Below the pieces are notes generated by a model. The model saw nothing but the letters and a program-made list of their open reading frames with translations, ran no database searches and was not told the DNA's origin. A program made the position numbers and the translations under genes. 64,000 nucleotides of DNA from Bacteroidales bacterium (GTDB lineage Bacteria; Bacteroidota; Bacteroidia; Bacteroidales; JAAYJT01), in contig JACZJK010000016.1 of the NCBI GenBank assembly GCA_014860575.1, forward strand, positions 186,001 through 250,000, written 5' to 3'. Numbering within the stretch: the stretch's first letter is position 1; each line of letters begins with the position of its first letter. Of the stretch, positions 49,983-63,992 are shown in pieces.

Positions 49983-50543
49983 ATGGATAATGAAGACGCC
50001 AGATTACTGGAATTATTTAAAACAAATGAGCGCGAAGCTTTCAGGGAACTTTTTATCCGCTATTATAAACCAATGGTATTGGCTGCTAAAATTTATTCCA
50101 ACAATGCTCAGGAAGCGGAAGACCTTGTGCAGCAGGTTTTTGTGAAAGTATGGGAAGAAAAGCTTTATAACCGGATTAATACCTCTTTTAAGCGCTATTT
50201 GCAGGTCTCTGTTCGAAATGCCTGTTTCAATCAGATTGCAAGTATTAGGGCAAAGCCTGCCATTGAGCGGGATATGAGTGAAGATATGCTAATCGGTCAG
50301 GCAATTGACTTTATGCTCATCCGTGAAGAGGTACAGATATTTGAAAAAGCCTTCGATGCATTGCCCATGCAAAGCAGGGTGGTTTTTGAACTGGTTTATT
50401 TTGAAGATCAGCCTTATAAAACAGCGGCACAAACACTTAACCTTTCGCTGAACACCATTAAATCGCATCTCCGCAATGCAATCCGTATCCTGAAAAACAG
50501 CCCTGTCATAAATAGTTATTATAGCGATAGAAAAAAATCCTGA
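49983..50543 (+). CDS. ECF RNA polymerase sigma factor (Bacteroidota FecI-like)
   Basis: A 186-residue sigma-70 family factor of the extracytoplasmic-function class. Region 2 spans about residues 25-95 (AQEAEDLVQQVFVKVWEE near 41-58) and region 4 about 120-175 (FELVYFEDQPYKTAAQTL with NLSLNTIKSHLRNAIRIL). It is followed by a FecR-like anti-sigma factor and a SusC with an STN domain, the standard cell-surface signalling set: substrate binding outside releases the sigma factor, which transcribes the downstream uptake genes. Confidence 0.94.
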   Translation: MDNEDARLLELFKTNEREAFRELFIRYYKPMVLAAKIYSNNAQEAEDLVQQVFVKVWEEKLYNRINTSFKRYLQVSVRNACFNQIASIRAKPAIERDMSEDMLIGQAIDFMLIREEVQIFEKAFDALPMQSRVVFELVYFEDQPYKTAAQTLNLSLNTIKSHLRNAIRILKNSPVINSYYSDRKKS

Positions 50544-50587
50544 TACAGGCTCACCCTTTTTCTATTTAATATTGTCATTAGTTTATC

Positions 50588-51775
50588 ATGAAAGAATTAA
50601 ACGAAACTCCTCCTATCCCGGATGTTATATTACAATTTCTCACCCAACAAGCTTTGGGCAAACTGGATCATACCGATTTGGGATTGCTTGAGCAGTGGAT
50701 AGAACAGAATCCTGAGAGGATTGATGAGTGCATTGCATACAAAGGCCAGCTGAAAAAATATTACTGGATTTATCTTTCAAAATCTGCGAAAGAACCAGAA
50801 ACAATCATTGACGGTTTACTTGGCAAAAGGCAACACCAAAGTAAAACAAGAGCAATGCTAATCAAACTTCTGCCCTATGCAGCAGCATTGTTTACGCTTG
50901 TTGGGCTGGGGTGGTTTCTACTTCAATTTAACAACGATACAGAATCTTCGATTGCTCAAACCGAATTGAAAGTTTTGGAAAGATACAGTAATGCTGTACT
51001 TGTTTTATCTGATGGCAAGCAGATAGTTCTTGATGACGAAAGTACTCATCTGTCTGGCGAGAACGGAGTTCGCATTACCAATCAACCTGGTGAGTTTTTG
51101 CGTTATGATCAGGAAGCGGTAGGTGGTGATGCACCCCGTATGAACCGTCTGATCGTTCCGGCCGGCGCCCGCTATCAACTGCAGCTGGCTGATGGCACCC
51201 GTGTCTGGATGAACTCCAGGTCAGAACTTGAATATCCTGTTGCTTTTTCAACGGATTTGCGCAGGGTCAAACTCAGCGGCGAAGCTTTTTTTGAGGTGAT
51301 GACCAATTCTTCAGCGCCATTTATCATTGAAGCAAATGGATACGAAGTCTTGGTTCATGGAACTGCTTTTAATGTTTCGGCTTACAATGACGATAATTTT
51401 ATTCAAACCACCCTGGTTTCAGGGGTAGTGGAAATGAGCAGCCGCGAAGGATTGGCATATAAGCTCAATCCAGGGCAAATGGCCATGTTTTCTCATCAAA
51501 GCCAGAAATTTGAGATCGGATATGTTGATACAAGATTATTCACTTCCTGGAAAGAAGGCGTTTTACATTTTAACAAAATAAGCCTTCAAGATTTAGCCAC
51601 CAAGCTGGAACGCTGGTATGATGTTGAAATCAGTTTTGAAAACGAACTGGCAGCCGGTTTTCAGTTCAGCGGTGCCATGGAAAATTCACGCGAAATCCGA
51701 TTCCTGCTCGATCTGATAGGCCGGGCTGCAAATGTGGAGTTTGAAATAAACGGGAAACAAATAATTGTGAAATGA
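50588..51775 (+). CDS. FecR-family anti-sigma factor / transmembrane sensor
   Basis: A 395-residue FecR homologue. A cytoplasmic N-terminal part (about 1-95) is followed by one transmembrane helix (about 97-116, LLPYAAALFTLVGLGWFLL) and a periplasmic FecR domain. RLIVPAGARYQLQLADGT near 185-202 and WMNSRSELEYPVAFS near 205-219 are family signatures, and EAFFEV near 231 and GTAFNVSAY near 257 continue the domain. The C-terminal DUF4974-like region ends FEINGKQIIVK. It should hold the ECF sigma factor inactive until SusC signals through its STN domain. Confidence 0.94.
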   Translation: MKELNETPPIPDVILQFLTQQALGKLDHTDLGLLEQWIEQNPERIDECIAYKGQLKKYYWIYLSKSAKEPETIIDGLLGKRQHQSKTRAMLIKLLPYAAALFTLVGLGWFLLQFNNDTESSIAQTELKVLERYSNAVLVLSDGKQIVLDDESTHLSGENGVRITNQPGEFLRYDQEAVGGDAPRMNRLIVPAGARYQLQLADGTRVWMNSRSELEYPVAFSTDLRRVKLSGEAFFEVMTNSSAPFIIEANGYEVLVHGTAFNVSAYNDDNFIQTTLVSGVVEMSSREGLAYKLNPGQMAMFSHQSQKFEIGYVDTRLFTSWKEGVLHFNKISLQDLATKLERWYDVEISFENELAAGFQFSGAMENSREIRFLLDLIGRAANVEFEINGKQIIVK

Positions 51776-51779
51776 GAAA

Positions 51780-51805
51780 CCGGGAAATGCTGCAACATCT
51801 CCCGG
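51780..51805 (+). promoter_or_regulatory. Hairpin between fecR and susC genes
   Basis: CCGGGA / TCCCGG arms (51780-51785, 51800-51805) around a 14-base loop sit 4 bp after the fecR stop. It lacks a long T-run and may be an attenuator, an mRNA-stability element, or a weak terminator that lowers fecR relative to susC. Confidence 0.4.
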
Positions 51806-51876
51806 CCAGTCAAAAATCAAAACCCCGAAACAGTGAAATCAGAGTAACAAATGATTAATAACCTAATTACAAAAGT

Positions 51877-54800
51877 ATGAATAAAAAACTACGAAAACGT
51901 GGCCCATACAGGTGGAACGTCTTCAAAATTATTGTGATCGGTATGAAGATTTTCATGTTACTCACTTTTATTGGCACGGTTCAGGTAAGTGCATCACTTT
52001 ATTCGCAGAACAACCTGATTAGTCTCAATTTGAAGAATGCCACAGTTTATGATGCTGTGAACGAAATTGCTCATCAATCGGAATTACTCTTCATTTTTCA
52101 TGAAACGGATGACTTGGCGGTCAGACGGATAAACATTGATGTGAAGTTGGTGAGCCTTGATCAAGCCATGAAGGAAGTGCTCAAGAACAGTCAACTGGAG
52201 TATGATCTTGTTGAGAATTACATTGTTGTTAAACCTGTTGCGGTGACTGCTGAAGCGGGAACAATTAAGCCTCAGCAACAGGAAAAAATTACCATCAGCG
52301 GGGTTGTGACCTCATCCGAAGATGGCGCCACCATCCCGGGAGTTACCATATTGGTTCGCGGTACAAAAGCAGGAACAACCACCGATCTTGACGGCAATTA
52401 CCAGATTGATGTTTCGCCTGAAAACACCCATCTGGTTTTCTCATTCGTAGGAATGATCACCCAGGAAGTTGCCATCAATAACCGTTCAGTAATCAATGTG
52501 GTTCTTGAACCGGCAGTTCTTGACCTAGGCGAGTTGGTTGTTGTGGGTTATGGCACTGAATCAAGCCGACTGGTTTCTGGTTCATTGGGTGTTGTTAGCG
52601 ATGCAGAACTTCGTGAAACACCATTGAAAACCATTGATGGTGTTTTGCAAGGCCGTTCGGCCGGGGTCTATATCAGCCAGAACTCTGGTACTCCCGGTGG
52701 AGCAAATTCAGTAAGAGTAAGGGGCAACAGTTCCATTTCAGCCGGAAATGAACCGCTGTATGTAATTGATGGCATCCCGATGACTAGCGGTAATTACGGA
52801 CAGATTGGTTTTTCGGGTCAAAGCATAAATGCATTGTCTGACATTAACCCAAACGATATTGAGTCCATCACAATTTTGAAAGATGCGTCAGCCGCAGCCA
52901 TTTACGGCGCGCGTGCTACCAATGGTGTCATTCTGATCACCACACGCCGGGGCAATCAGCAACGAACCAATATCAGTTTCAATGGTTCATGGGGATGGCA
53001 GGAAGTTGCAAAACAACTTGAAATGCTGAGCGCTGATCAATGGCTTGAATATATGAACAAGCAGCCGGATCCAACCAATCCTGTTGACATCAATTACCTC
53101 AATGAAATATTCAGGGTTGCTCCAATGAACAGTTACGAATTGTCAGCCTCGGGAGGGGATGAGAAGACACAGTTTTTCATATCAGGGAACTATTTTGATC
53201 AGACCGGTATCATCCTTGGAACCGATTACCAGCGTTTGAATGGCAGGATGAACCTGGATCACCAGTTAAACAGGAACATTAAAATTGGAGGGAGCCTGGG
53301 CACAAGTTATTCCATGAATAACAGGGTTGAAGGCGACAGGTCGCTACATGGAGTGCTTCCAAATTCCATATCACGGCCACCGATTTATCCCATCTACAAC
53401 GAGGATGGCACTTATAATCAGGATGGTTTTTTTGCGAACCCAATTGCAATAGGAAAAGAGGCAATCAATGAAGCACATTCCTATCGAACCATTGGAAACG
53501 TTTTTGCCGATATCAGAATTCTTGAAAACCTGTCTTTTAGCTCGAGATGGGGAATGGATTACCTGAGTTTGCGCGAACATAGTTATGACCCGGTTACCAC
53601 ACGGCAGGGAGCTACAACCAATGGACTTGGAATTGAGGCACAAACAAATGTCCTGAATATTGTTTCGAATAATCTCTTCAGATATACCAACACCTTCAGC
53701 AGCTTGCACAATGTCGAAGCCCTTGCAGGCTATTCTTTTGAAATGTTCAAACGCCGCAATCAGTACGCCGAAGGAATAGATTTTCCGAATGCATATTTCC
53801 AATACCTGCTTGATGCCGGAACCATTCGTCTGGCTGATGCCAGGGCCACTGATCGCGGAATCAATTCTTATTTCGGGCAATTGAAGTATAATCTCGATTA
53901 TAAATACATCATTTCACTAAGTGGTCGTTTTGATGGTTCTTCAAAATTCGGGACTAATAACCGCTATGGTTTCTTTCCTGCAGCCTCACTCGCATGGCGT
54001 CTGAGCGAAGAAGCATTTTTTCAGGATATGAACCTTGCTGTTAACGAATTCAGGTTGAGAACCAGTTACGGGCTCACAGGAAATGACGGAATACCCGATT
54101 TTGCTTATATGAACCTTTACAGTGGCAGAGCAAATTATCTCTCAAGACCAGGCATTGCTCCGGCAGGCATGGCAAATGATCTTCTTAAATGGGAAACCAC
54201 CACCCAATTTAATGTTGGGGCCGATGTTGAATTTTTTAAAGAAAGGATCGCTCTTTCAATTGATTATTATTATAACGTTACCAGTGATTTGCTTTTTAAC
54301 CGGCCAATCTCGCCGACCAGTGGCTTCAGTTCAATCACCACCAATATTGGTGAACTAGAAAACAAGGGAATGGAACTTTCACTGAATACAGTAAATGTCA
54401 AAGCAAGCAATTTTAAATGGGAATCGAAATTTAACGTTAGCCACAACAAGAATAAAATTCTTTCACTATACAAAGATCAGAACCTGCTTGATCTCGACAG
54501 GTATAGCCCAAGCGCAGTGATTGTTGGCCAGCCGATGAGCGTTTTCTTCGGTTTCCGCAGCCTGGGTGTTGACCCCAGCACCGGCGATCTGGTTTTTGAT
54601 GATGTTGATGGCAACGGCGTTATAAATTCTAACGACCGTGTGGTGATTGGCGATCCTAATCCATTGTTTACAGGAGGTTTCTCCAACTCATTAACTTACG
54701 GACAGTTCGACTTAAGTTTCTTCATCCAGTTTTCCTATGGCAACGATATTTTTAATGCCTCCCGCATCTTCACAGAAGCCATGACTTTTGCCGATGAAAA

Positions 54801-55164
54801 CCAAAGTGAAGCGATTTTGAGGCGTTGGCAAAATCCTGGCGACATCACCGATATTCCACGTGCTGATGCTGACAACATCAATTCAAACAATCGAATTTCT
54901 TCCCGCTTCGTGGAGGATGGTTCATACGCAAGGTTGAAAAACATTACCCTGTCCTATTTAATGGACAAGAGATTAATTGAAGGTATTGGAGTCAGAAGCG
55001 CCCGTATTTATATATCAGGAGCCAACCTGTTCACCATTACCAATTACTCGGGCATGGATCCGGAAGTCAATTACAGGGGTGATAGCAATCTGCTCAGGGC
55101 AACCGATTTCTTCACATATCCACAGGCTAGGACATACACCATTGGAATCAATTTAGGACTTTAA
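51877..55164 (+). CDS. SusC/RagA-family TonB-linked outer membrane transporter with STN signalling domain
   Basis: A 1095-residue outer-membrane transporter. The extended N-terminus (about 1-45) holds a signal peptide, then an STN secretin/TonB signalling domain (about 50-115; LISLNLKNATVYDAVNEIA, then HQSELLFIFHE), which contacts FecR. A carboxypeptidase-D-like domain (about 138-215, ISGVVTSSEDGATIPGVTIL), the TonB box (LDLGELVVVGYGTE near 216-229) and the plug domain (about 235-345, IDGVLQGRSAGVYI, LKDASAAAIYGARATNGVI) follow. The barrel ends ARTYTIGINLGL. SusC forms a lidded channel with SusD. The neighbours point to a cyanophycin-derived peptide, not a glycan, as cargo. Confidence 0.96.
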   Translation: MNKKLRKRGPYRWNVFKIIVIGMKIFMLLTFIGTVQVSASLYSQNNLISLNLKNATVYDAVNEIAHQSELLFIFHETDDLAVRRINIDVKLVSLDQAMKEVLKNSQLEYDLVENYIVVKPVAVTAEAGTIKPQQQEKITISGVVTSSEDGATIPGVTILVRGTKAGTTTDLDGNYQIDVSPENTHLVFSFVGMITQEVAINNRSVINVVLEPAVLDLGELVVVGYGTESSRLVSGSLGVVSDAELRETPLKTIDGVLQGRSAGVYISQNSGTPGGANSVRVRGNSSISAGNEPLYVIDGIPMTSGNYGQIGFSGQSINALSDINPNDIESITILKDASAAAIYGARATNGVILITTRRGNQQRTNISFNGSWGWQEVAKQLEMLSADQWLEYMNKQPDPTNPVDINYLNEIFRVAPMNSYELSASGGDEKTQFFISGNYFDQTGIILGTDYQRLNGRMNLDHQLNRNIKIGGSLGTSYSMNNRVEGDRSLHGVLPNSISRPPIYPIYNEDGTYNQDGFFANPIAIGKEAINEAHSYRTIGNVFADIRILENLSFSSRWGMDYLSLREHSYDPVTTRQGATTNGLGIEAQTNVLNIVSNNLFRYTNTFSSLHNVEALAGYSFEMFKRRNQYAEGIDFPNAYFQYLLDAGTIRLADARATDRGINSYFGQLKYNLDYKYIISLSGRFDGSSKFGTNNRYGFFPAASLAWRLSEEAFFQDMNLAVNEFRLRTSYGLTGNDGIPDFAYMNLYSGRANYLSRPGIAPAGMANDLLKWETTTQFNVGADVEFFKERIALSIDYYYNVTSDLLFNRPISPTSGFSSITTNIGELENKGMELSLNTVNVKASNFKWESKFNVSHNKNKILSLYKDQNLLDLDRYSPSAVIVGQPMSVFFGFRSLGVDPSTGDLVFDDVDGNGVINSNDRVVIGDPNPLFTGGFSNSLTYGQFDLSFFIQFSYGNDIFNASRIFTEAMTFADENQSEAILRRWQNPGDITDIPRADADNINSNNRISSRFVEDGSYARLKNITLSYLMDKRLIEGIGVRSARIYISGANLFTITNYSGMDPEVNYRGDSNLLRATDFFTYPQARTYTIGINLGL

Positions 55165-55176
55165 CTGAACACAAAT

Positions 55177-56535
55177 ATGAAAAAACTAATCTATATTTCT
55201 TTGTCATTGATCCTGTTCTTTGGATCGTGCGAAGTGCTTGATGTTCAACCGTATCATTCCATACCGGCTGAGGATGCTATTACCAATGCTGCACAGGTTG
55301 AGAGTGCAATCATCGGCTGTTATGATGCCCTGCAAAGTGATGGTTATTATGGAGTTAACTATCTTGTATTTGGTGATCTACCTGCTGATAATCTTTCCCA
55401 TGTGGGTGTTACAGTAACCTGGGGGGAGTTTAACAACAATTCTATCCTGGCCGATAATGGCCTTGTTGAAAGCACATGGGCAGCAATCTATCGCATGCTT
55501 AGCAGGGTAAATAATACAATTGACAAAATTCCCCAGATCGGTTCGGACAAGATGTCGGATAACGAGAAAGCTACTGCCCTTGCAGAATTGAAATGTTTGA
55601 GGGCTTTAGGGCATTATGATTTAATGCGCCTATTTGGCCCGATCACTATCCGCGACAAAGCCGTTGGAAACGATGAGGAAAGTCTTAATCCTCCACGGCA
55701 TTCTATTGAAAATGTGCTTATTTTGATCAATAGGGATTTGGATGATGCTATTGCCGGCCTTCCTTCGACCATTGTCAGGGGCAGAGTTTCAAAACCTGCC
55801 GCTCAGGCGCTAAAAGCACGGGTGGCATTACACCAGTATTACATTACACAATCCACTCCATTTCTTGATCAGGCCATTGACTATGCCACACAAGTTATCA
55901 ACCATTCCGGTTTGCAACTTGAAACGGATTATGCAATCCTTTTTAATGTTGAGGTCGAAAATAATAGTGAAGGAATATTCCAGATAGTTTACAATGATCA
56001 GGACCGAAATCTCATTGCACGTTACTTTGCCCATACTTCGGTGGAGGGCAGGTATGAATTTTCGCCCACCCCATTTTATCTTACAGCTTTCCATCCGGAT
56101 GATGTAAGGAAAGATATTTCCGTTAAAATGGCCGGAGCTGCCCCGTATGCTGTGAAAGCGAATGATGTTGCTTCCGGTACCGATCCGGTTTATGTACTTC
56201 GTCTTGCTGAAATGTATCTTATAAGAGCCGAAGCATCAACACTTCTGCAAAGGAGCACTGATGAAATCCTCAGCGATATAAATGCAATCAGGGAAAGGGC
56301 CGGGTTGCAGCCTGCAAATATTACAAGCTATGCCGGCCTGAAATTGGAGATAGAGTCGCAACGGCAAAAGGAATTTGCTTTTGAAGGACATCGTTGGTTC
56401 GACCTCGTAAGAACCGACCGGGCAATTGAAGTGCTTGAAAAGGTGAACAGCAGAAATCAATACTTTTTTCCGATTCCTCAAGCCGAGATTATTGCTAACG
56501 ATAATCCCGGAATGTATCAGAACGGTGGTTATTAA
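55177..56535 (+). CDS. SusD/RagB-family outer membrane lipoprotein
   Basis: A 452-residue substrate-binding lid for the SusC upstream (12 bp gap). The lipobox is FFGSCEVLDVQPY with Cys18, followed by the usual helical TPR-like fold (AQVESAIIGCYDALQS near 43-58, ALKARVALHQYYI near 209-221). The C-terminus has the family pattern LRLAEMYLIRAEA near 343-355, ERAGLQPANI, EIESQRQKEFAFEGHRWFDLVRT near 384-406, and YFFPIPQAEI. The bound ligand is unknown; adjacency to cyanophycin-degrading enzymes suggests peptide fragments. Confidence 0.95.
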   Translation: MKKLIYISLSLILFFGSCEVLDVQPYHSIPAEDAITNAAQVESAIIGCYDALQSDGYYGVNYLVFGDLPADNLSHVGVTVTWGEFNNNSILADNGLVESTWAAIYRMLSRVNNTIDKIPQIGSDKMSDNEKATALAELKCLRALGHYDLMRLFGPITIRDKAVGNDEESLNPPRHSIENVLILINRDLDDAIAGLPSTIVRGRVSKPAAQALKARVALHQYYITQSTPFLDQAIDYATQVINHSGLQLETDYAILFNVEVENNSEGIFQIVYNDQDRNLIARYFAHTSVEGRYEFSPTPFYLTAFHPDDVRKDISVKMAGAAPYAVKANDVASGTDPVYVLRLAEMYLIRAEASTLLQRSTDEILSDINAIRERAGLQPANITSYAGLKLEIESQRQKEFAFEGHRWFDLVRTDRAIEVLEKVNSRNQYFFPIPQAEIIANDNPGMYQNGGY

Positions 56536-56555
56536 TTATTATTAAACCTTTCATT

Positions 56556-57464
56556 ATGAAAGCAATAACAATACATTCAGCCTTTTTAATTGGCCTCTCT
56601 CTTTTGTTTTTGTCAATCAATGCCTGCAAGGAAGATGAGTTTGACGTGCCACAGGCAAGTACCCAGGCAAAATTTGATTATGAGGTCAGGGTTATCGTCA
56701 TTGATGAAGAATTGGGAATAGAAAATTATGAAGTAAAATTGTTCAACAGGTCGGTTCTTGCAAAATCTTTACTTTGGGATTTTGGCAACGGAGCAACCTC
56801 CACCGAAGAAAACCCGGTTGTTATTTATACAAACGCCGGCCGTTACACAATTACACTTACCGTGATGCCCCATAATGAAGGTTTGCATTATAGCAATCTG
56901 GTTAAAATCGAATCATTTGCCTTTGGTAAACAGGTTTTGCTTTACGAAGATTTTAGCTCAGGAAGAGACTATCTGGATGAAGCTGAGTGGGCGCCTGAAG
57001 GCTGGCAGGCCATTGACAATGATGATGATGGCTTCAACTGGTACGCCAGTTACAGATTATCGGCAGGGGATACAATTTTTTCGCTTCGAAGTCAATCATA
57101 TGATGGGTCAACGGGTGCATTAACACCCGACAACTGGCTGGTCACCCCTGAAATAAACCTTACTTCCTATGATGAAGCTGACGTTACTTTCCGGTTTACT
57201 GTGGGCGTTACTGCCAATACGCTTGTATATCGAAAAGAACATTACGGGGTATTCATTGCTATAGGGAATGACAATATTGAAAGTTTCACATTGTTGAGCG
57301 AAGAAACTTTTACAGAAGAAACCCCCAGAATGGTACCCCTGGAAAGGGAAGTCGACATCTCGGAATATGCCGGTCAGATTGTTTTTCTTGCCATCAGGCA
57401 TTATAATGTAACCGATATGGACCGCATATTTGTAGAAGAAGTTGAGCTTTTTGTAATTGAATAA
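56556..57464 (+). CDS. Surface lipoprotein with PKD and choice-of-anchor J domains
   Basis: A 302-residue lipoprotein. The signal peptide ends SINACKEDEFD. The Cys is followed by K-E-D-E, which fits the lipoprotein export signal K-(D/E)2 described for some Bacteroidota, so surface exposure is likely. A PKD domain follows (about 40-120, SVLAKSLLWDFGNGATSTEENP, then YTNAGRYTITLTV). A complete choice-of-anchor J domain spans about 125-302: YEDFSSG, WAPEGWQAIDNDDDGFNWY and TPDNWLVTPEINL in the first half; VFIAIGNDN, VFLAIRHYNVTDMDRIFVEEVELF in the second. It probably helps bind the substrate at the cell surface. Confidence 0.8.
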   Translation: MKAITIHSAFLIGLSLLFLSINACKEDEFDVPQASTQAKFDYEVRVIVIDEELGIENYEVKLFNRSVLAKSLLWDFGNGATSTEENPVVIYTNAGRYTITLTVMPHNEGLHYSNLVKIESFAFGKQVLLYEDFSSGRDYLDEAEWAPEGWQAIDNDDDGFNWYASYRLSAGDTIFSLRSQSYDGSTGALTPDNWLVTPEINLTSYDEADVTFRFTVGVTANTLVYRKEHYGVFIAIGNDNIESFTLLSEETFTEETPRMVPLEREVDISEYAGQIVFLAIRHYNVTDMDRIFVEEVELFVIE

Positions 57465-57519
57465 CAGCATCAGAATTATTAGAAAATCAATCAATAATGT
57501 TTAATTAAAATCATCCACC

Positions 57520-58383
57520 ATGAAAAAATTATCTTTACTCACGATCATTTTTGCTATGCTTTGTGCCGGTTTGAACACTACGGCGCAAAACAATCTGAAA
57601 AGTGCCGAGTACATCCTGTCGTGGGATGTATGCCCAACTGCCAACACACCCTCTTTCAGGGCTGAGTATTACAGCGTTTGGATTTCAACTTCAGGAAACA
57701 CTCCTGACGATTTTACTACCATGCTGTTTGAAGAAACACTTTCAACAACCCACACTAACTGGGTTTACGAAAACCGCCAGGTGAATATTGATAACTATGC
57801 AAATGTGTCGGTTTTTGTAGCATTCAGGCATCATGATATTACCGATATGGATCGGATCGTAATTGACAATGTAAAACTGTTCAGGGTAAACAGCGATGGC
57901 GAAGAAGAGCTGGTTTATTTGTTTGAGAATTTCCAGGATGGAATTGGGAATCCGGCCGGTGAAGATTGGCTTCCCGAAGGTTGGGTTGCTATTGACGATG
58001 ATGGTGATCAATTTAACTGGTACTTTGGAGAGCGCCAGGGCGAAGGTGCAATGAGAAGCCAATCATGGGACAGCAATCCGTTAACCCCTGATAACTGGTT
58101 AATAACTCCTGCCATTTTACTTGGAAGCGTTGGCATCAATGAACTTCCTGATAAGAGGGTGAGTATTTTTCCAAATCCTGCAAGCTCCTCTGTAAATGTA
58201 AATAGCAACTCAGAGATAAAGCAGATTGAACTGGTGAACATGGTTGGAACCCGTGTGTTGAGCCAGGAGATGAACGATCTTAACACCGGCATTGATGTTA
58301 GCTCATTCAAAAATGGGCTGTATTTCATGAGATTGTATACCATTGATGGCATTGTGGTTAAGAAACTGCATATCATCAAATAG
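57520..58383 (+). CDS. T9SS-exported protein with a permuted choice-of-anchor J domain
   Basis: A 287-residue secreted protein (signal peptide about 1-22, ending NTTAQ). The order is unusual. Residues about 25-125 match the second half of a choice-of-anchor J domain (YILSWDV, YYSVWISTSGNTPDDF, VFVAFRHHDITDMDRIVIDNVKLF). Residues about 130-205 match the first half (YLFENFQDG, WLPEGWVAIDDDGDQFNWYF, LTPDNWLITPAILL). The intact domain in the preceding gene has the opposite order, so this one looks circularly permuted or built from two half-domains. A T9SS sorting domain follows (IFPNPASSSVNVNSNSE near 219-235). It is probably a surface or secreted binding protein. The last gene before a strong hairpin. 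Confidence 0.75.
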   Translation: MKKLSLLTIIFAMLCAGLNTTAQNNLKSAEYILSWDVCPTANTPSFRAEYYSVWISTSGNTPDDFTTMLFEETLSTTHTNWVYENRQVNIDNYANVSVFVAFRHHDITDMDRIVIDNVKLFRVNSDGEEELVYLFENFQDGIGNPAGEDWLPEGWVAIDDDGDQFNWYFGERQGEGAMRSQSWDSNPLTPDNWLITPAILLGSVGINELPDKRVSIFPNPASSSVNVNSNSEIKQIELVNMVGTRVLSQEMNDLNTGIDVSSFKNGLYFMRLYTIDGIVVKKLHIIK

Positions 58384-58406
58384 TTTACAGATTAGCCTTA
58401 ATTTTA

Positions 58407-58445
58407 AGAGGCTTTCTCAGGAGCATAAAACCTGGGGAAGTCTCT
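58407..58445 (+). terminator. 15-bp RNA hairpin between the anchor J gene and iadA
   Basis: AGAGGCTTTCTCAGG and CCTGGGGAAGTCTCT pair over 15 positions, with three G-U pairs, around a 9-base loop. The tail (TATTATC) is only weakly T-rich. It is either a partial terminator, lowering the hydrolase genes relative to the SusCD part, or a stabilising 3' end. Confidence 0.55.
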
Positions 58446-58466
58446 TATTATCAATGAACCAAAGTT

Positions 58467-59606
58467 ATGATCCTCATTAAAAACTGCGAACTCTACACAC
58501 CCTCATTCGAAGGTAAAAAGAATGTGCTGGTAGGTGGCACCAAAGTGTTGGCCATTGGAAATAACCTCAATCTTCCGGCAAACTGGGTGGTGACTGAGTT
58601 AGATGCCTCCGGGCTTTTTATGATTCCCGGACTGATTGACGGCCATGTACATATTGCCGGAGCCGGTGGCGAAGGCGGGCCTTCAGGCCGGACACCGGAA
58701 CTTCCATTATATCGCTTTCTTGAAGCTGGCGTTACAACGGCTATAGGATGCCTTGGCGCCGATGGGATCACACGCAATGTGGAATCAGTGCTTATGAAAG
58801 TAAAAGGGCTCAGACAGCAAGGTATTTCTTCATGGATGTACACTGGTTCCTACCAGGTTCCCCCTCCCACCATTCTTGGTGATGTGGCCAAAGACCTCGC
58901 AATGATTGAGGAAGTAATAGGAGTTGGTGAAATTGCCTTATCCGATCACCGTTCTTCATTTCCGACTACAATCGAGTTGGTAAAACTGGTCAGCCAGGCA
59001 AGGGTAGGGGCGATGCTGGGTAAAAAATCCGGCATTATAAACATTCACATGGGCGATTTTAAAGATCCATTCAAACCTTTATACGACGCCTCTATTGAGG
59101 GAAAGTTTCCACTTAAGCAGTTCCTCCCCACCCACTGCAACCGAAATGCATGGATCTTTGAAGATGCCAAATCTTACGGGAAACAGGGATACATTGATAT
59201 TACCGCCAGTGCTTATCCCTATTTCCCTGATGATGAGATCAAGCCATCCAAAGCCATTGCTGAATTTCTGAAAGCCGGAGTACCGCTTGAACACATAACG
59301 CTCACAAGCGATGGAGGAGGCTCATTGCCTTCGTTTGATGCAGAGGGCAACCTGATTAAAATTGAAATCGGCTATCCCAAATCAATTCTCACTGAAATTG
59401 CCGATGCTGTGAAAACCGATGGGCTCAGTATTGAGCAGGCTGTTAGCGTTGCCACGATCAACATTGCCAATGTACTGAAGCTGGAATCAAAAGGACGAAT
59501 TGCCAAAGGCATGGATGCTGACCTTGTTTTACTCGACAAAGACTTTAACCTGCAACACGTGATCGCAATGGGCAAACTAATGGTTCGTGATGGTGAATTG
59601 ATTTAA
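58467..59606 (+). CDS. iadA: Isoaspartyl (beta-aspartyl) dipeptidase, M38 amidohydrolase
   Basis: A 379-residue cytoplasmic amidohydrolase close to E. coli IadA over its whole length. Metal ligands are visible as H60 and H62 (DGHVHIAG), H194 (INIHMGD), H223 (PTHCNRN) and D282 (SDGGGSLP). The catalytic-pocket Glu is E69 in AGGEGGPSGRTPE, and R226 should bind the substrate carboxylate. The position of the carboxylated Lys of E. coli IadA (before the ISDHRS segment) is E155 here (EIALSDHRS), so the metals would be bridged by a Glu. It would split beta-Asp-Arg into Asp and Arg. No signal peptide. It is 18 bp before the cyanophycinase gene. Confidence 0.92.
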   Translation: MILIKNCELYTPSFEGKKNVLVGGTKVLAIGNNLNLPANWVVTELDASGLFMIPGLIDGHVHIAGAGGEGGPSGRTPELPLYRFLEAGVTTAIGCLGADGITRNVESVLMKVKGLRQQGISSWMYTGSYQVPPPTILGDVAKDLAMIEEVIGVGEIALSDHRSSFPTTIELVKLVSQARVGAMLGKKSGIINIHMGDFKDPFKPLYDASIEGKFPLKQFLPTHCNRNAWIFEDAKSYGKQGYIDITASAYPYFPDDEIKPSKAIAEFLKAGVPLEHITLTSDGGGSLPSFDAEGNLIKIEIGYPKSILTEIADAVKTDGLSIEQAVSVATINIANVLKLESKGRIAKGMDADLVLLDKDFNLQHVIAMGKLMVRDGELI

Positions 59607-59624
59607 CACAAATATTCAGGGTGT

Positions 59625-60476
59625 ATGAGAAGAATTTTCAGTGTTTTTATTCTCTTGCTTTTTATTGTTTCTGCATGTCATGAACCTGAAAAAGCTGTTG
59701 AGCCGAAGGGGAAGCTTTTTATTATTGGCGGAGGGAAGCGCCCTCCCGGAATGGTTCAGCGTATGGTACAGGAAGCCGGACTGGAACAAGACGGTCACAT
59801 AGTAATCCTGACAATGGCCAGCAGCGAGCCTGACACTTCTGCGTTTTATGCAGCCAAACAATTTATTGATCAAGGCATTTCACATATTGCTGATTTCAGG
59901 TTTTCAGGAGATGAAGAACCCAGTGCCGAACGCCTCGATTCACTCAGAAGTGCCAGCCTGATATATATTACCGGAGGCGATCAGAACCGCTTTATGGAAA
60001 TTGTTACCGGAACTTCTGTTGAGGAAGCCATTAAAACTTGTTACAATAATGGTGGCATGCTTGCAGGCACAAGCGCCGGTGCGGCTGTGATGAGCGAGAA
60101 AATGATTACCGGCAACGAGCTCAAGAAAAGCGATTACCGCGAAACCTTTCGAACCATCGAAGCCAACAACATTGAACTGGGAAGAGGGCTTGGTTTTCTT
60201 ACAACAGCCATTGTTGACCAGCATTTTGTCTGGCGAAGCCGCCATAACCGGCTAATAACGGCTGTAATCGAACATCCTGAATTAATAGGTATCGGAATTG
60301 ATGAAGCTACCGCCATACTGGTGAAAGGCAATACGGCTGAAGTTATAGGGGAATCGCAGGTGCTGGTTTATGAGAATGCGGATAAGTCTTCTACTATCAA
60401 TGAGGACGAAAAACTTGGTGCAAGATACCTTCGTTTAAGAGTCCTCCTTCCCGGCGAAACCTTCAGGCTTTATTGA
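59625..60476 (+). CDS. Cyanophycinase (S51 family), lipoprotein
   Basis: A 283-residue S51 serine peptidase cutting cyanophycin (multi-L-arginyl-poly-L-aspartate) into beta-Asp-Arg dipeptides. The lipobox is FIVSAC with Cys18, so unlike cytoplasmic CphB it is membrane-anchored, in the periplasm or on the surface. LFIIGGGKRPPG is at 31-42, TGGDQNRF at 116-123, the nucleophile S150 in AGTSAGAAVMS, the catalytic His H200 in DQHFVWRSRHNRL, and the Glu E227 in GIDEATA. The length matches the family. It follows iadA by 18 bp. The product of this enzyme is the iadA substrate. Its stop overlaps the convergent T9SS cyanophycinase stop by 7 bp. Confidence 0.9.
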   Translation: MRRIFSVFILLLFIVSACHEPEKAVEPKGKLFIIGGGKRPPGMVQRMVQEAGLEQDGHIVILTMASSEPDTSAFYAAKQFIDQGISHIADFRFSGDEEPSAERLDSLRSASLIYITGGDQNRFMEIVTGTSVEEAIKTCYNNGGMLAGTSAGAAVMSEKMITGNELKKSDYRETFRTIEANNIELGRGLGFLTTAIVDQHFVWRSRHNRLITAVIEHPELIGIGIDEATAILVKGNTAEVIGESQVLVYENADKSSTINEDEKLGARYLRLRVLLPGETFRLY

Positions 60477-62467
60477 AACACCATTACTTTTGCTGCTAAA
60501 ATGGCTTCATTTGTTTGAACCTGTAGCAGATAAAGCCCATCTCTTAGCCCGGTTGTTTTGAAAGCTACATTTTGTTCGCCGCTTTGTAAAGCCTGGTTCT
60601 GGATGTACATCAATTGTCCGTTCGTATTATACAAGCGCAAAATGATACTGCCAGCTTCGGTGGAGTTTAATCGGATATTTATTGCCTGTGATGAAGGATC
60701 GTAATGGGCCTTCAAAGTATTATTTTGTGCCAGGTTTTCAACACCATATACAACATCGCCAACCATAAGATTATTTGGATACAGTAAGGTCTGAAAATTC
60801 ATGATTTCAAAGCCTCCAACCTGTCGGTTGCGGTATAACTGTGCGTTTAAATCGTAATCACCTTCCTGGCTTGTGAGGATCATGGCAGGGCTTTCGCCAT
60901 GAACGGTAATGTAGGAATAGGGGAATTCAACGTAATACTTCATGAAATTCCTCACCGTGAGCCAAACACCCCTGCGTACCTGTTCCTGTAGCATGGCATA
61001 GGGAAGCGCGGAGTTGGTGTTCTCGTAATAATCAGTAGAATACAGGTAGGTATTTGGCATGATGACCATCGTTGACAAAAGGTTAAGGCCGGGATTGAAT
61101 GTAAGTTGCCCGTTAAAAGAAGCAGATGGATATGTGAGGTAATTATCGGAAACTACCACTGCGCCGGCCATACGGCTGTTATCGCCAACAAAAGCAACTA
61201 CCACACCTGTTGAATGAATCTTTTCCATTAGCAAACTTCCGTTGCCACTTCCCGAAAACATAAAGTCATAAAGCGTTTGGTAAGCATTGCCTATGAAAAC
61301 AAATTTCCAGGATTGCTCAATCAGTGCCTGGAATGTGGGGCTGGTATTGTTTGCCGGTATTGCCTGTTCAACTTCCACATTGGTTGCTCCTGCGTTATTA
61401 AAAGCTTGCTTGTATGCATCGGCCAGCGTTGAATTGGTTCCGGTAATGATCAGTATCGGCTCTGATTTCGATCCCAATGAATCAACCAAATGGGTGATAA
61501 AAAATTGATTTTCGCTTACGGGATCAGAGCCACTGAGTAAAACGGTTCGGTTTCCATATTCTGTAATCTGTTCAACTGACATTTGGGAGCCAAAGCCATT
61601 CACCTCAAAAGTGTTGAGATTGATACTGCAACCGTGCAGTAATTGTGTTGCTTTTACATCCTGGCACAGCAATTTGTTATTCTGATGACAAAATTCTCCA
61701 TCACGATAGATATTGATGGCGGCAGTTCCGTAAGCATAACCCATTGGGTTTTCAGAATCAGACAAGTCAATGCAGAATGCAGTCATATCGTCCACTCCAA
61801 TGCCGATAAGGTCTTCGCTGTGGTCGTTTTTCCATCGTGCCATAAATGCAAGCATACGAGCAAGGCGGCCTCGTTCAATAAAGTGGGAATCAAAAATATA
61901 ACCCGGCATCAGGTTAAGAAAATCGTTTTTCAGGGTAATGCTGCTGTGAAAAATGTTTTTAAGGCATTCATCGGAGTACGCAGTACCATTTTCAGCGGTG
62001 TAGATGACACCCGATAAAATTGCCAGCCCAGCCGAGGTTCCCGCTATCACACCACCGCTGTTGAATTTGTCGTGAACAGCGTCCTGTGTTTTTGTGTTCC
62101 GGTACGTGAGATAATAATTCTTTTGATCACCTCCCCTGAAGAAAATCACATCATAAGCCATCAGGCTGTCGTAGGTAGCCTGTGAGTCAGCAATGGCAAC
62201 GGAGTTTATAAGGAAGTTTTTTGCAGAGGCAGCGCCAAGGCTAACAAAATAATCGGGGAGCCATGAGGAGCCACTACTAAAACCAATGATGGCTACTTTT
62301 TTATTAACGGAGTTATCCACTGCCCAGGCATACGGAATATTGCTCCAGTCGTCGTAGTTCTCAGTTCCTCCGCCAACAATCATGATCTTGCCTTGTGCGA
62401 ATCCAATGACTGAGAATAGGGAACATAAAACTGACAGAAGAGAAATGAGGAGATGGGATTTCTTCAT
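60470..62467 (-). CDS. T9SS-exported cyanophycinase-like protein with a degenerate second S51 domain
   Basis: A 665-residue secreted S51-type peptidase. The ATG at 62467 is chosen because it opens a clear signal peptide (MKKSHLLISLLSVLCSLFSV, ending FAQ); the frame extends 41 residues upstream without meaning. The first domain (about 25-300) has IMIVGGGTENYDDW, FRGGDQKNYY, S145 in IAGTSAGLAILS, H195 in DSHFIERGRLARM, and D227 in GVDDMTA where other family members have Glu. A second region (about 325-560) repeats the fold pattern without the motif (FIGNAYQTLYDFM, VVAFVGDNSRMAGAVVV), so it is probably a degenerate copy. A sorting domain ends the protein (LYLLQVQTNEAILAAKVMVFQ). It would attack the polymer outside the cell. 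The beta-helix gene lies 31 bp upstream. Confidence 0.82.
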   Translation of the reverse strand: MKKSHLLISLLSVLCSLFSVIGFAQGKIMIVGGGTENYDDWSNIPYAWAVDNSVNKKVAIIGFSSGSSWLPDYFVSLGAASAKNFLINSVAIADSQATYDSLMAYDVIFFRGGDQKNYYLTYRNTKTQDAVHDKFNSGGVIAGTSAGLAILSGVIYTAENGTAYSDECLKNIFHSSITLKNDFLNLMPGYIFDSHFIERGRLARMLAFMARWKNDHSEDLIGIGVDDMTAFCIDLSDSENPMGYAYGTAAINIYRDGEFCHQNNKLLCQDVKATQLLHGCSINLNTFEVNGFGSQMSVEQITEYGNRTVLLSGSDPVSENQFFITHLVDSLGSKSEPILIITGTNSTLADAYKQAFNNAGATNVEVEQAIPANNTSPTFQALIEQSWKFVFIGNAYQTLYDFMFSGSGNGSLLMEKIHSTGVVVAFVGDNSRMAGAVVVSDNYLTYPSASFNGQLTFNPGLNLLSTMVIMPNTYLYSTDYYENTNSALPYAMLQEQVRRGVWLTVRNFMKYYVEFPYSYITVHGESPAMILTSQEGDYDLNAQLYRNRQVGGFEIMNFQTLLYPNNLMVGDVVYGVENLAQNNTLKAHYDPSSQAINIRLNSTEAGSIILRLYNTNGQLMYIQNQALQSGEQNVAFKTTGLRDGLYLLQVQTNEAILAAKVMVFQ

Positions 62468-62498
62468 GACTTTTGCGTTTAAGCTGAATAATGCTGGT

Positions 62499-63992
62499 TT
62501 ATCTTGAAACAACAATCGAGCGGATTTCCATTTTTGAACCTGACCTGACCGAGAGAAAATACACACCATTTTCAATATTGCCAACATCAATTATGATGCG
62601 GTTATCTTTTGTGATAACCCTGTCTTTTTTCATTGTAATCCCATTGAGGTTCAGGATCGTGTACTGAATTACCCGGCCTGCCATAAGTTCTTCGTTCAGA
62701 TGAACAGAACCTAAAGTTGACATTGGGTTTGGGAAAATGTTAAGGATCAGATTCTGTGGTTTCTCCTGCAATGGTAATTCATCGGTTCCCAAAGGAATAA
62801 GAATCGGCATATAATCAACAAGGCCAAGGTTAGGATCATCAGGTTGGTGGAATATTACCATCTCAACCGAATCAAGGTTGGTAGTTCCCCAATAATTGTA
62901 TTGCGCTTTAAGGTTTTGTGCAGTGTTGTTATACAAAGCATACAAAGAGCCGTTATTCCCGTTATTATAAAAAAAGTTCTCGCCGGGATTAACAATGATA
63001 AAATCCCGCTCGCCCAGGTTTGGCCTTGCTGAGCCTTGTACGGTAATGCCCCAGAGGTTCCCGTTGATTGTATTCCCGCTTACCATAGCGGTGTTGGTTA
63101 CGGCGCCGTTGAAGTTTAAACCGCTGCCACCCAGGTTTGGATTGCCCTGGATGTTGTTATCCGAAATCACATTATTGTGAATTTCGGTATGGATGGTACT
63201 GCCTATGGCCGCAATACCGTAACGGTTATTGGTGATTATGTTGTCTTCGATGATGCTGTAGCAATCGCCTCCGGCCAGTGTTGAAACCGCAATGCCGCCT
63301 GCCTGGTCGAACTGCCCGGTAATTGTATTGCCAACAATCCTTATTGTATCATTTCCTGAATTTCCAAGGTTGATCTGGGGCATATTGGTGTTATCAGTAT
63401 TGTTGCTCCAGATGTGACAACCAATAATTTGAGGAGCGGCAAGTGCATTCGCTGCCGAAGCTATTGCCGGGCCTTTGTTTTGGTATATTTCGTTGTTAAC
63501 GAGCCTCACTTTTCCCTGCGATACCTGTATGGCACCGGTAGTGTTTGATTTATTGAAATACCTGATCACACAATCTTCCACCAGCATATCCGAACCAATG
63601 ATCTGTATCCCACCGCCATATTCAATCAGGCAGTTGTGCAGGGCTGAGGCAGGTGAGTTTTCAAACCTGAACCCTTTAAAAAACTGCGCTGGACTGGAAG
63701 CCGTAAGTATGGCCTGACCGGGTGGATTGGCTATAAAGACACCATAAATGGTCATCAATACATTAGGATCAAATTGAACCTGATCATTTGAAATTATCTT
63801 CAGCGTATCGTTGACTGAAATGGTAAGATCTCCATGTATCATATAGATGGAATTGTCAACGGTGACCACTCCACCTGAATGTAACACGAGGTCATCAAAC
63901 GTCCAGCTCACACTTGTTCCTGGTGTAATAAACTGCCCGTGAACCAATAAGTTAACACAAAATAAAACCACTGATAGTAAAGTCCGACCCAT
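62499..63992 (-). CDS. T9SS-exported right-handed beta-helix repeat protein
   Basis: A 497-residue secreted protein. A signal peptide (about 1-19, MGRTLLSVVLFCVNLLVHG) is followed by a parallel beta-helix. Repeated rungs read as NNCLIEYGGGIQIIGSDMLV, DCVIRYFNKSNTTGAIQVS, NNEIYQNKGPAIAS, NTITGQFDQAGGIAVS, DNIITNNRYGIAAIGS and HNNVISDNNIQGNP. A type A T9SS sorting domain starts near residue 412 (IFPNPMSTLGSVHLNE). No catalytic residues for a lyase can be assigned. It is transcribed ahead of the T9SS cyanophycinase gene, so it may bind or present the same insoluble polymer, but this is inference. Confidence 0.8.
   Translation of the reverse strand: MGRTLLSVVLFCVNLLVHGQFITPGTSVSWTFDDLVLHSGGVVTVDNSIYMIHGDLTISVNDTLKIISNDQVQFDPNVLMTIYGVFIANPPGQAILTASSPAQFFKGFRFENSPASALHNCLIEYGGGIQIIGSDMLVEDCVIRYFNKSNTTGAIQVSQGKVRLVNNEIYQNKGPAIASAANALAAPQIIGCHIWSNNTDNTNMPQINLGNSGNDTIRIVGNTITGQFDQAGGIAVSTLAGGDCYSIIEDNIITNNRYGIAAIGSTIHTEIHNNVISDNNIQGNPNLGGSGLNFNGAVTNTAMVSGNTINGNLWGITVQGSARPNLGERDFIIVNPGENFFYNNGNNGSLYALYNNTAQNLKAQYNYWGTTNLDSVEMVIFHQPDDPNLGLVDYMPILIPLGTDELPLQEKPQNLILNIFPNPMSTLGSVHLNEELMAGRVIQYTILNLNGITMKKDRVITKDNRIIIDVGNIENGVYFLSVRSGSKMEIRSIVVSR

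Follow-up and report, generated by a model that had tools for sequence, protein, structure and literature searches.

Cyanophycin is a nitrogen-rich storage polymer of cyanobacteria and other bacteria, and cyanophycinases are exo-acting enzymes that release dipeptides from it. RagAB of Porphyromonas gingivalis is a SusCD pair that imports peptides, not glycans, and the abstract of Ben Hania and colleagues is said to describe a transport complex for cyanophycin that shares homology with polysaccharide utilization loci. Here we analyse positions 49983–63992 of a 64,000-nucleotide stretch of a Bacteroidales genome (the window; assembly GCA_014860575.1, contig JACZJK010000016.1), a locus in which a SusC/SusD pair lies beside two S51-family proteins and the isoaspartyl dipeptidase IadA. 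Judged from its sequence, the locus very probably senses, cuts, imports and digests cyanophycin made by other microbes (scavenging). The initial annotation had already read it as a cyanophycin-utilization locus, which is supported by the recurrent linkage of its genes, by intact catalytic and pocket residues, and by the finding of no cphA1.

The same annotation knew of no SusCD system dedicated to cyanophycin, a statement overtaken by a cyanophycin utilization locus published for a Bacteroidetes strain (Ben Hania et al. 2017, as cited in PMC10206079 and PMC6243061). Loci of this kind are thus already published, and the window is a further example of an arrangement that recurs. According to an excerpt of PMC6243061, Salinivirga cyanobacteriivorans has a plain S51 protein and another with a Por domain, and cyanophycin had been proposed in 2012 as the substrate of a TonB-dependent transporter in Citromicrobium (excerpt of PMC3400609). 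The titles and abstract openings of the literature surveyed contained no report of a SusCD tested by experiment for cyanophycin. Cyanophycin genes are ubiquitous in activated sludge according to the title of PMC10687191, and an excerpt of PMC10206079 describes the isoaspartyl dipeptidase(s) of cphA1-bearing Bacteroidota as still undiscovered; the loci described here belong to Bacteroidota that pair a cyanophycinase with the isoaspartyl dipeptidase step.

Gene content and enzymes of the locus

All ten reading frames of the locus were confirmed, eight on the + strand and two convergent with them on the − strand. Domains were named by Pfam and NCBIfam scans against curated cut-offs, and the gene identities of the initial annotation are borne out, apart from a ‘beta-helix’ label for the protein of 62499–63992, in which Pfam matches a type IX secretion system (T9SS) tail alone. 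The genes are as follows.

49983–50543, + strand: extracytoplasmic function (ECF) sigma factor; Sigma70_r2 and r4_2 over cut-offs
50588–51775, + strand: FecR-type anti-sigma factor; FecR 62.2 bits, FecR_C 60.7 bits
51877–55164, + strand: SusC/RagA TonB-linked porin with an N-terminal STN signalling domain; TIGR04056 862.7 bits (cut-off 368.25), STN 29.7 bits (cut-off 28.4)
55177–56535, + strand: SusD lipoprotein, lipobox ..FFGSC; SusD_RagB 88.3 bits, SusD-like_3 65.7 bits
56556–57464, + strand: PKD and choice-of-anchor J lipoprotein (..INACKEDE); PKD_4 and Cleaved_Adhesin over cut-offs
57520–58383, + strand: T9SS-secreted protein with a split or permuted anchor J; Cleaved_Adhesin in two stretches, Por_Secre_tail
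58467–59606, + strand: isoaspartyl dipeptidase IadA; TIGR01975 429.2 bits (cut-off 331.25), matches 1onw and 8dqn
59625–60476, + strand: lipoprotein cyanophycinase, CphB type; TIGR02069 169.8 bits (cut-off 126.6), matches 7uqv, 3en0 and 7uqw
60470–62467, − strand: T9SS-secreted S51 protein, convergent with the operon; S51 36.3 bits, TIGR02069 80.3 bits, Por_Secre_tail
62499–63992, − strand: T9SS-secreted repeat protein, 5′ of the T9SS S51 gene; Por_Secre_tail alone

The eight + strand genes are separated by gaps of 12–101 base pairs (bp) and therefore look like one transcription unit. Lipoprotein signals can be read from the sequences of SusD, the PKD protein and the cyanophycinase, T9SS tails are present on both − strand proteins and on the anchor-J protein of 57520–58383, and the T9SS translocon protein SprA is encoded in the genome.

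By its sequence, the lipoprotein is a cyanophycinase with an intact predicted active site. Alignment to 3en0 and 7uqv shows that the catalytic triad is kept (Ser150, His200 and Glu227), and that Gln120, Asp198, Gln199, Arg204, Arg206 and Arg209 occupy the positions of Gln101, Asp172, Gln173, Arg178, Arg180 and Arg183 of CphB, pocket residues given as critical, after Law et al. 2009, in an excerpt of PMC3235067. The triad and pocket columns are unvarying in 13 of 13 aligned sequences, that of the window counted. IadA aligns over its full length to the Escherichia coli structure 1onw with the metal and substrate motifs kept; its metal site comprises HxH, the Glu/Lys position, His and His, with a Glu in place of the carboxylated Lys, and LmIadA is likewise described with Glu at the metal position (excerpt of PMC10206079). 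All strict motif strings occur in 21 of the 33 IadA frames, including that of the window, and no signal peptide is visible in the IadA sequence.

The second S51 protein is more divergent. Its frame can be opened at a TTG at 62590, which is probably not the real start, or at the ATG at 62467 (665 residues), with which an apparent signal peptide begins. The TIGR02069 score lies under the cut-off of 126.6 bits and the Pfam S51 score over its own. In the alignment the protein keeps the Ser, the His, the first Gln, the Asp and three Arg, with the triad Glu substituted by Asp and the Gln173 position by Ser. Of the aligned stretches of long S51 proteins, some of which contribute two, 30 have Asp and 15 have Glu as the triad acid, and at the Gln173 position 35 have Thr and 13 have Ser. 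In an AlphaFold2 model built from 33 sequences (mean predicted local distance difference test score, pLDDT, 91.1), residues 26–292 match 7uqv, 7uqw and 3en0 with Z of 27.6–28.3 (28.3 for 7uqv) and a root mean square deviation of 2.1–2.2 over 245–249 residues, and this N-terminal cyanophycinase fold looks as if it could be active. For residues 580–665 the matches include T9SS tails (8qb1, Z 9.9; 8gl6, Z 9.2) alongside numerous other beta sandwiches. The protein as modelled likely contains S51 in duplicate, the second copy being degenerate: the strand and helix order of residues 300–545 resembles that of the first half as judged by eye, a comparison of the profiles of the two halves, both built from the same 33 rows, aligns 203 columns at E 7.9e-7, and the second half has no His at the triad position and reads GDNSRMAG at the GTSAG motif. 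The second copy is argued from the half-against-half profiles and the by-eye order because the whole-model fold comparison scarcely probes residues 300–545. A third, still more divergent S51 protein of about 700–750 residues is seen in Flammeovirga (L258, 13157–15394; L256, 13715–15814).

The divergence of the T9SS S51 protein, below the cyanophycinase cut-off and with Asp for the triad Glu, would also suit a broader scavenging of beta-aspartyl peptides, in which isoaspartyl peptides or isopeptide-linked material are used and cyanophycin is one substrate of several. The promiscuity for beta-aspartyl dipeptides of LmIadA and RhIaaA, two enzymes from cyanophycin clusters (excerpt of PMC10206079), points the same way. 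We consider this explanation unlikely, as no residue of the cyanophycin pocket is missing from the lipoprotein enzyme, which also scores above the curated cut-off.

Two further proteins deserve mention. In the protein of 57520–58383, the C-terminal half of the anchor-J domain precedes the N-terminal half (Pfam matches and alignment), reflecting either a circularly permuted domain or a tandem repeat that collapsed in the assembly. The gene of 62499–63992 lies 31 bp 5′ of the T9SS S51 gene; in a search of the window and the first 120 fetched loci, which did not extend to the 80 named loci (see below), its protein profile matched itself alone, and its membership in the system is not supported for want of any other match there.

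Genome context and recurrence across Bacteroidota

The genome holds three S51 genes, two of them in the locus, and one IadA gene, with no recognisable cphA1 at 95% completeness (best TIGR02068 match 60.4 bits vs a cut-off of 850). Two features of a scavenging-type cluster are thus found: a cyanophycinase and IadA clustered in a genome without recognisable cphA1, and an outer-membrane transporter, SusC with SusD (51877–56535). The intact catalytic and pocket residues, taken together with the finding of no cphA1, fit scavenging. A DcuC-family carrier beside the operon is a feature taken from comparable loci and not from a definition in print; PF03606 has no match on the window's contig (C16) and has matches on C5, C35, C51 and C40, other carrier families beyond the window not having been tested. 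In a set of 60 genomes that includes this one, IadA and cyanophycinase each exceed the cut-off in 13, and 12 carry both, 9 of the 12 on one contig. Among 20 regions fetched from relatives in the order, three (L130, L133 and L134) have SusC, SusD, IadA and two S51 genes, L117, at a contig start, has SusD, and L118 has SusC near its end; in 10 of the 20 no frame passed the short-cyanophycinase filter.

Across 395 Bacteroidota genomes, cyanophycinase was found over the cut-off in 89, cphA1 in 45 and IadA in 9. We fetched 80 sample regions in which a cyanophycinase has no strong cphA1 neighbour (16 weaker listed matches and the unlisted ones were left out, and L151, L159 and L193 have cphA-like neighbours by profile), as well as 12 of about 39 cphA1-linked cyanophycinase matches, and annotated all fetched regions with profiles made from the window proteins. 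SusC and SusD lie within 10 kb of a short cyanophycinase in 14 of the 80 sample regions, on the same strand and upstream of it in all 14, and at none of the 12 cphA1-linked cyanophycinases. A short-cyanophycinase frame is present in 71 sample regions and lacking in 9; 23 of the 71 adjoin a TonB-dependent receptor of another kind and lack a SusCD pair, and in 29 cphA, IadA, SusCD and a receptor of that sort are all missing.

A further scan, of named loci, covered the best 80 of 486 confirmed places. SusC and SusD are present in 45 of these 80 and in 35 of the 44 loci with full flanks, although the 13 seed cyanophycinases of the scan came from loci that themselves have SusC and/or SusD, so that 35/44 is not a frequency, for which the sample gives 14/80. 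The pair is on the same strand and upstream in 39/45, and in 32/35 with full flanks, where 25% would be expected with strand and side at random (binomial for the 32/35, 1.5e-16, the rows not being independent). Two of the 80 named loci have no frame through the short-cyanophycinase filter; L239, in which no frame passed, carries SusC and SusD and brings the named SusCD loci to 46. They span Bacteroidales, Cytophagales, Flavobacteriales, Sphingobacteriales and Chitinophagales. One SusC-SusD-PKD-cyanophycinase locus (L238, PWGU01000081.1) lies in a contig binned as the archaeon Halorubrum, probably a mis-binned Bacteroidota contig.

The regularity of strand and order bears on a chance neighbourhood, that is, an ordinary glycan SusCD operon beside unrelated peptidase genes. 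Chance is favoured by the abundance of SusC genes, of which one compared genome yielded as many as 106 first-look candidates, and by their lack of diagnostic value under about 43% identity. The same strand and upstream position in 39/45 named and 14/14 sampled loci nevertheless led us to reject it, and SusCD at 0/12 cphA1-linked cyanophycinases, the short gaps between the operon genes and a Pfam scan that found no glycoside hydrolase or other carbohydrate-active enzyme among the ten locus proteins make it highly improbable.

Over all fetched loci, SusC, SusD and S51 occur together in 65 rows, at most 63 of them distinct since two pairs were fetched twice. IadA is found in 11 of these rows and IaaA in 19, never both, which suggests a conserved second step that either enzyme can serve; a DcuC-family carrier is present in 20, two or more S51 genes in 31 and cphA in none (IaaA and DcuC identities were assigned by Pfam). 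The linkage of S51, IadA and SusCD across genomes, which the initial annotation had proposed as a check and whose absence it took as refuting its reading, is recurrent: SusC and SusD adjoin a cyanophycinase in 14/80 sample regions and in named loci of five orders, as against 0/12 cphA1-linked regions, and IadA or IaaA is present in 30/65 rows. The trio complete with IadA makes up the lesser share, at 11/65. In a quick tree of 167 cyanophycinase rows, with the same sampling as the fetched loci, SusCD-linked (60) and cphA-linked (18) enzymes are separated by one change when these alone are compared, and the SusCD label against all other tree rows takes 21 changes (shuffles, 49.4).

These rows also bear on turnover of the cell's own cyanophycin store as the alternative to scavenging. 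Storage and degradation genes do meet elsewhere: of 19 rows with cphA, IadA is present in 6 and IaaA in 8, some of them in the window's order, and three sampled genomes hold both a SusCD-linked cyanophycinase and cphA1. For the window such turnover is barely conceivable and was rejected on the finding of no cphA1 in a nearly complete genome; moreover, cphA is found in 0/65 SusC, SusD and S51 rows, both S51 proteins carry export signals and the SusCD pair is present.

Two other groupings were seen in the fetched regions. In L147, L152, L153, L161, L170, L183–L186, L191 and L192, a short cyanophycinase and a long S51 protein accompany a TonB-dependent receptor of ∼820–910 residues without SusD, several with a DcuC-family carrier, and by their gene content these SusD-less receptor loci are a second locus kind in other Bacteroidota. 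The SusCD and cyanophycinase genes of Flavobacterium (L167, L168, L174, L176, L177 and named loci) have recurrent neighbours, namely a penicillin-amidase family protein, an M28 peptidase and a class III aminotransferase, which may reflect either genus synteny or Arg catabolism.

Surface proteins and the proposed scavenging route

In a best-match test on 22 chosen genomes, the locus-linked SusC is, among the matches listed, the best match to the window SusC in 7, at 38–63% identity (G034 63%, G022 53%, G285 49%, G015 44%, G026 41%, G084 39% and G233 38%), and the best paralogue in its own genome reaches 34%. Three of the 22 fall outside the comparison: G012 has a contig break, G185 no SusCD in the fetched region, and G000 is the query. 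With two candidates scored per genome, a search of the 395 genomes gave identities above 43%, among the matches listed, in the own gene and G285 only. Taken together, these results indicate an orthologous SusC core limited to the window's order and one genome beyond; elsewhere other SusCs adjoin the cyanophycinase. SusC alone was rejected as a cyanophycin marker, since the linked SusC is often not the best match and few matches at 37–43% are linked.

The PKD/anchor-J lipoprotein (predicted model, mean pLDDT 80.4) is likely a surface substrate binder, to go by its domains. Its profile matches 25 of the 65 rows, and the matched proteins that were inspected end in anchor J or beta-propeller-like domains. 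In five of the matched proteins that were scanned (L242, L243 twice, L256 and L237), PKD is found in all, along with propeller-like matches (some weak), and anchor J in none, so the profile counts mean a PKD-bearing lipoprotein.

We infer localisation, the order of cutting and import, and induction along the following lines. The T9SS S51 protein and the lipoprotein cyanophycinase would break the polymer down at the cell surface into dipeptides and short (beta-Asp-Arg)n, which SusD and the PKD/anchor-J lipoprotein would hold for import by SusC with TonB energy. The fragments would then cross the inner membrane by a carrier not found in the locus, and cytoplasmic IadA would split beta-Asp-Arg to Asp and Arg as a source of carbon and nitrogen. 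A loop of the ferric-citrate type, made up of FecR, the ECF sigma factor and the SusC STN domain, may induce the operon on substrate binding.

Several observations weigh against this route. Dipeptides freed by an exo-acting cyanophycinase might need no SusCD. SusC is, from the sequence comparisons, no diagnostic marker: in 12 of the 22 chosen genomes (G139, G201, G265, G270, G304, G308, G312, G325, G328, G344, G383 and G418) a SusC other than the linked one matches best, and of 23 other SusC matches listed at 37–43% identity, 2 are linked (G084 and G233). Neither IadA nor IaaA is present in the fetched stretch of 35 of the 65 SusC, SusD and S51 rows, and 3 of the 14 sampled SusCD-linked genomes (G139, G201 and G285) have cphA1 elsewhere. 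The seeding of the named scan counts here too, as does its composition, with 22 of the 46 named SusCD loci in Flavobacteriaceae, 17 of these in Flavobacterium, and hence fewer events than rows. Finally, 4 of the 20 relatives' regions (L119, L122, L127 and L128) combine IadA with cphA-like genes and no SusCD. The cphA-like genes, one or two per region, are shorter (about 650–740 residues); L122, L127 and L128 carry an S51 gene, and L119 has none in the fetched stretch. This different arrangement is perhaps biosynthetic, and because of these four regions storage-type clusters are, by gene content, also present in the window's order.

Implications and comparison with known systems

If the SusCD-type route holds, some Bacteroidota would be direct consumers of cyanophycin, and the substrates of SusCD pairs would gain a non-glycan, non-ribosomal polypeptide; SusD and the PKD lipoprotein are ready targets for learning how such pairs recognise peptides. 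A more far-reaching proposal, which we offer tentatively and regard as somewhat doubtful, is that the T9SS S51 protein typifies a separate subfamily of S51 (a catalytic Ser-His-Asp domain plus a degenerate copy) for insoluble extracellular granules, with a dedicated SusCD importing beta-Asp-Arg oligomers and not dipeptides, such loci being a widespread nitrogen-salvage route in Bacteroidota.

With a polysaccharide utilization locus the window shares the SusC/SusD pair, and differs in having no carbohydrate-active enzyme among its ten proteins (Pfam). RagA is among the Protein Data Bank matches of the window SusC, and another SusC homologue there, 8aa4, scores higher. Like the T9SS S51 protein, CphE of Pseudomonas is secreted (excerpt of PMC3235067), and it has Thr at the CphB Gln173 position, where most aligned long S51 stretches have Thr or Ser; CphE, of about 45 kDa, has the triad Glu, whereas the T9SS S51 protein carries Asp in its place, ends in a T9SS tail and probably contains a second S51-like domain. 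The one locus seen in a Salinivirgaceae metagenome-assembled genome (L242) has cphB-SusC-SusD-PKD lipoprotein and, unlike the window, no IadA or second S51 gene in 17.9 kb. The locus of S. cyanobacteriivorans L21-Spi-D4 resembles the window in its one plain and one Por (T9SS) S51 protein (excerpt of PMC6243061). The Flammeovirga pacifica WPAGA1 cluster (L258; excerpt of PMC10206079) shares with the window SusC, SusD, a PKD lipoprotein, a short cyanophycinase and a long S51 protein, and differs from it in that IaaA replaces IadA and that a DcuC-family carrier and a third S51 protein are present.

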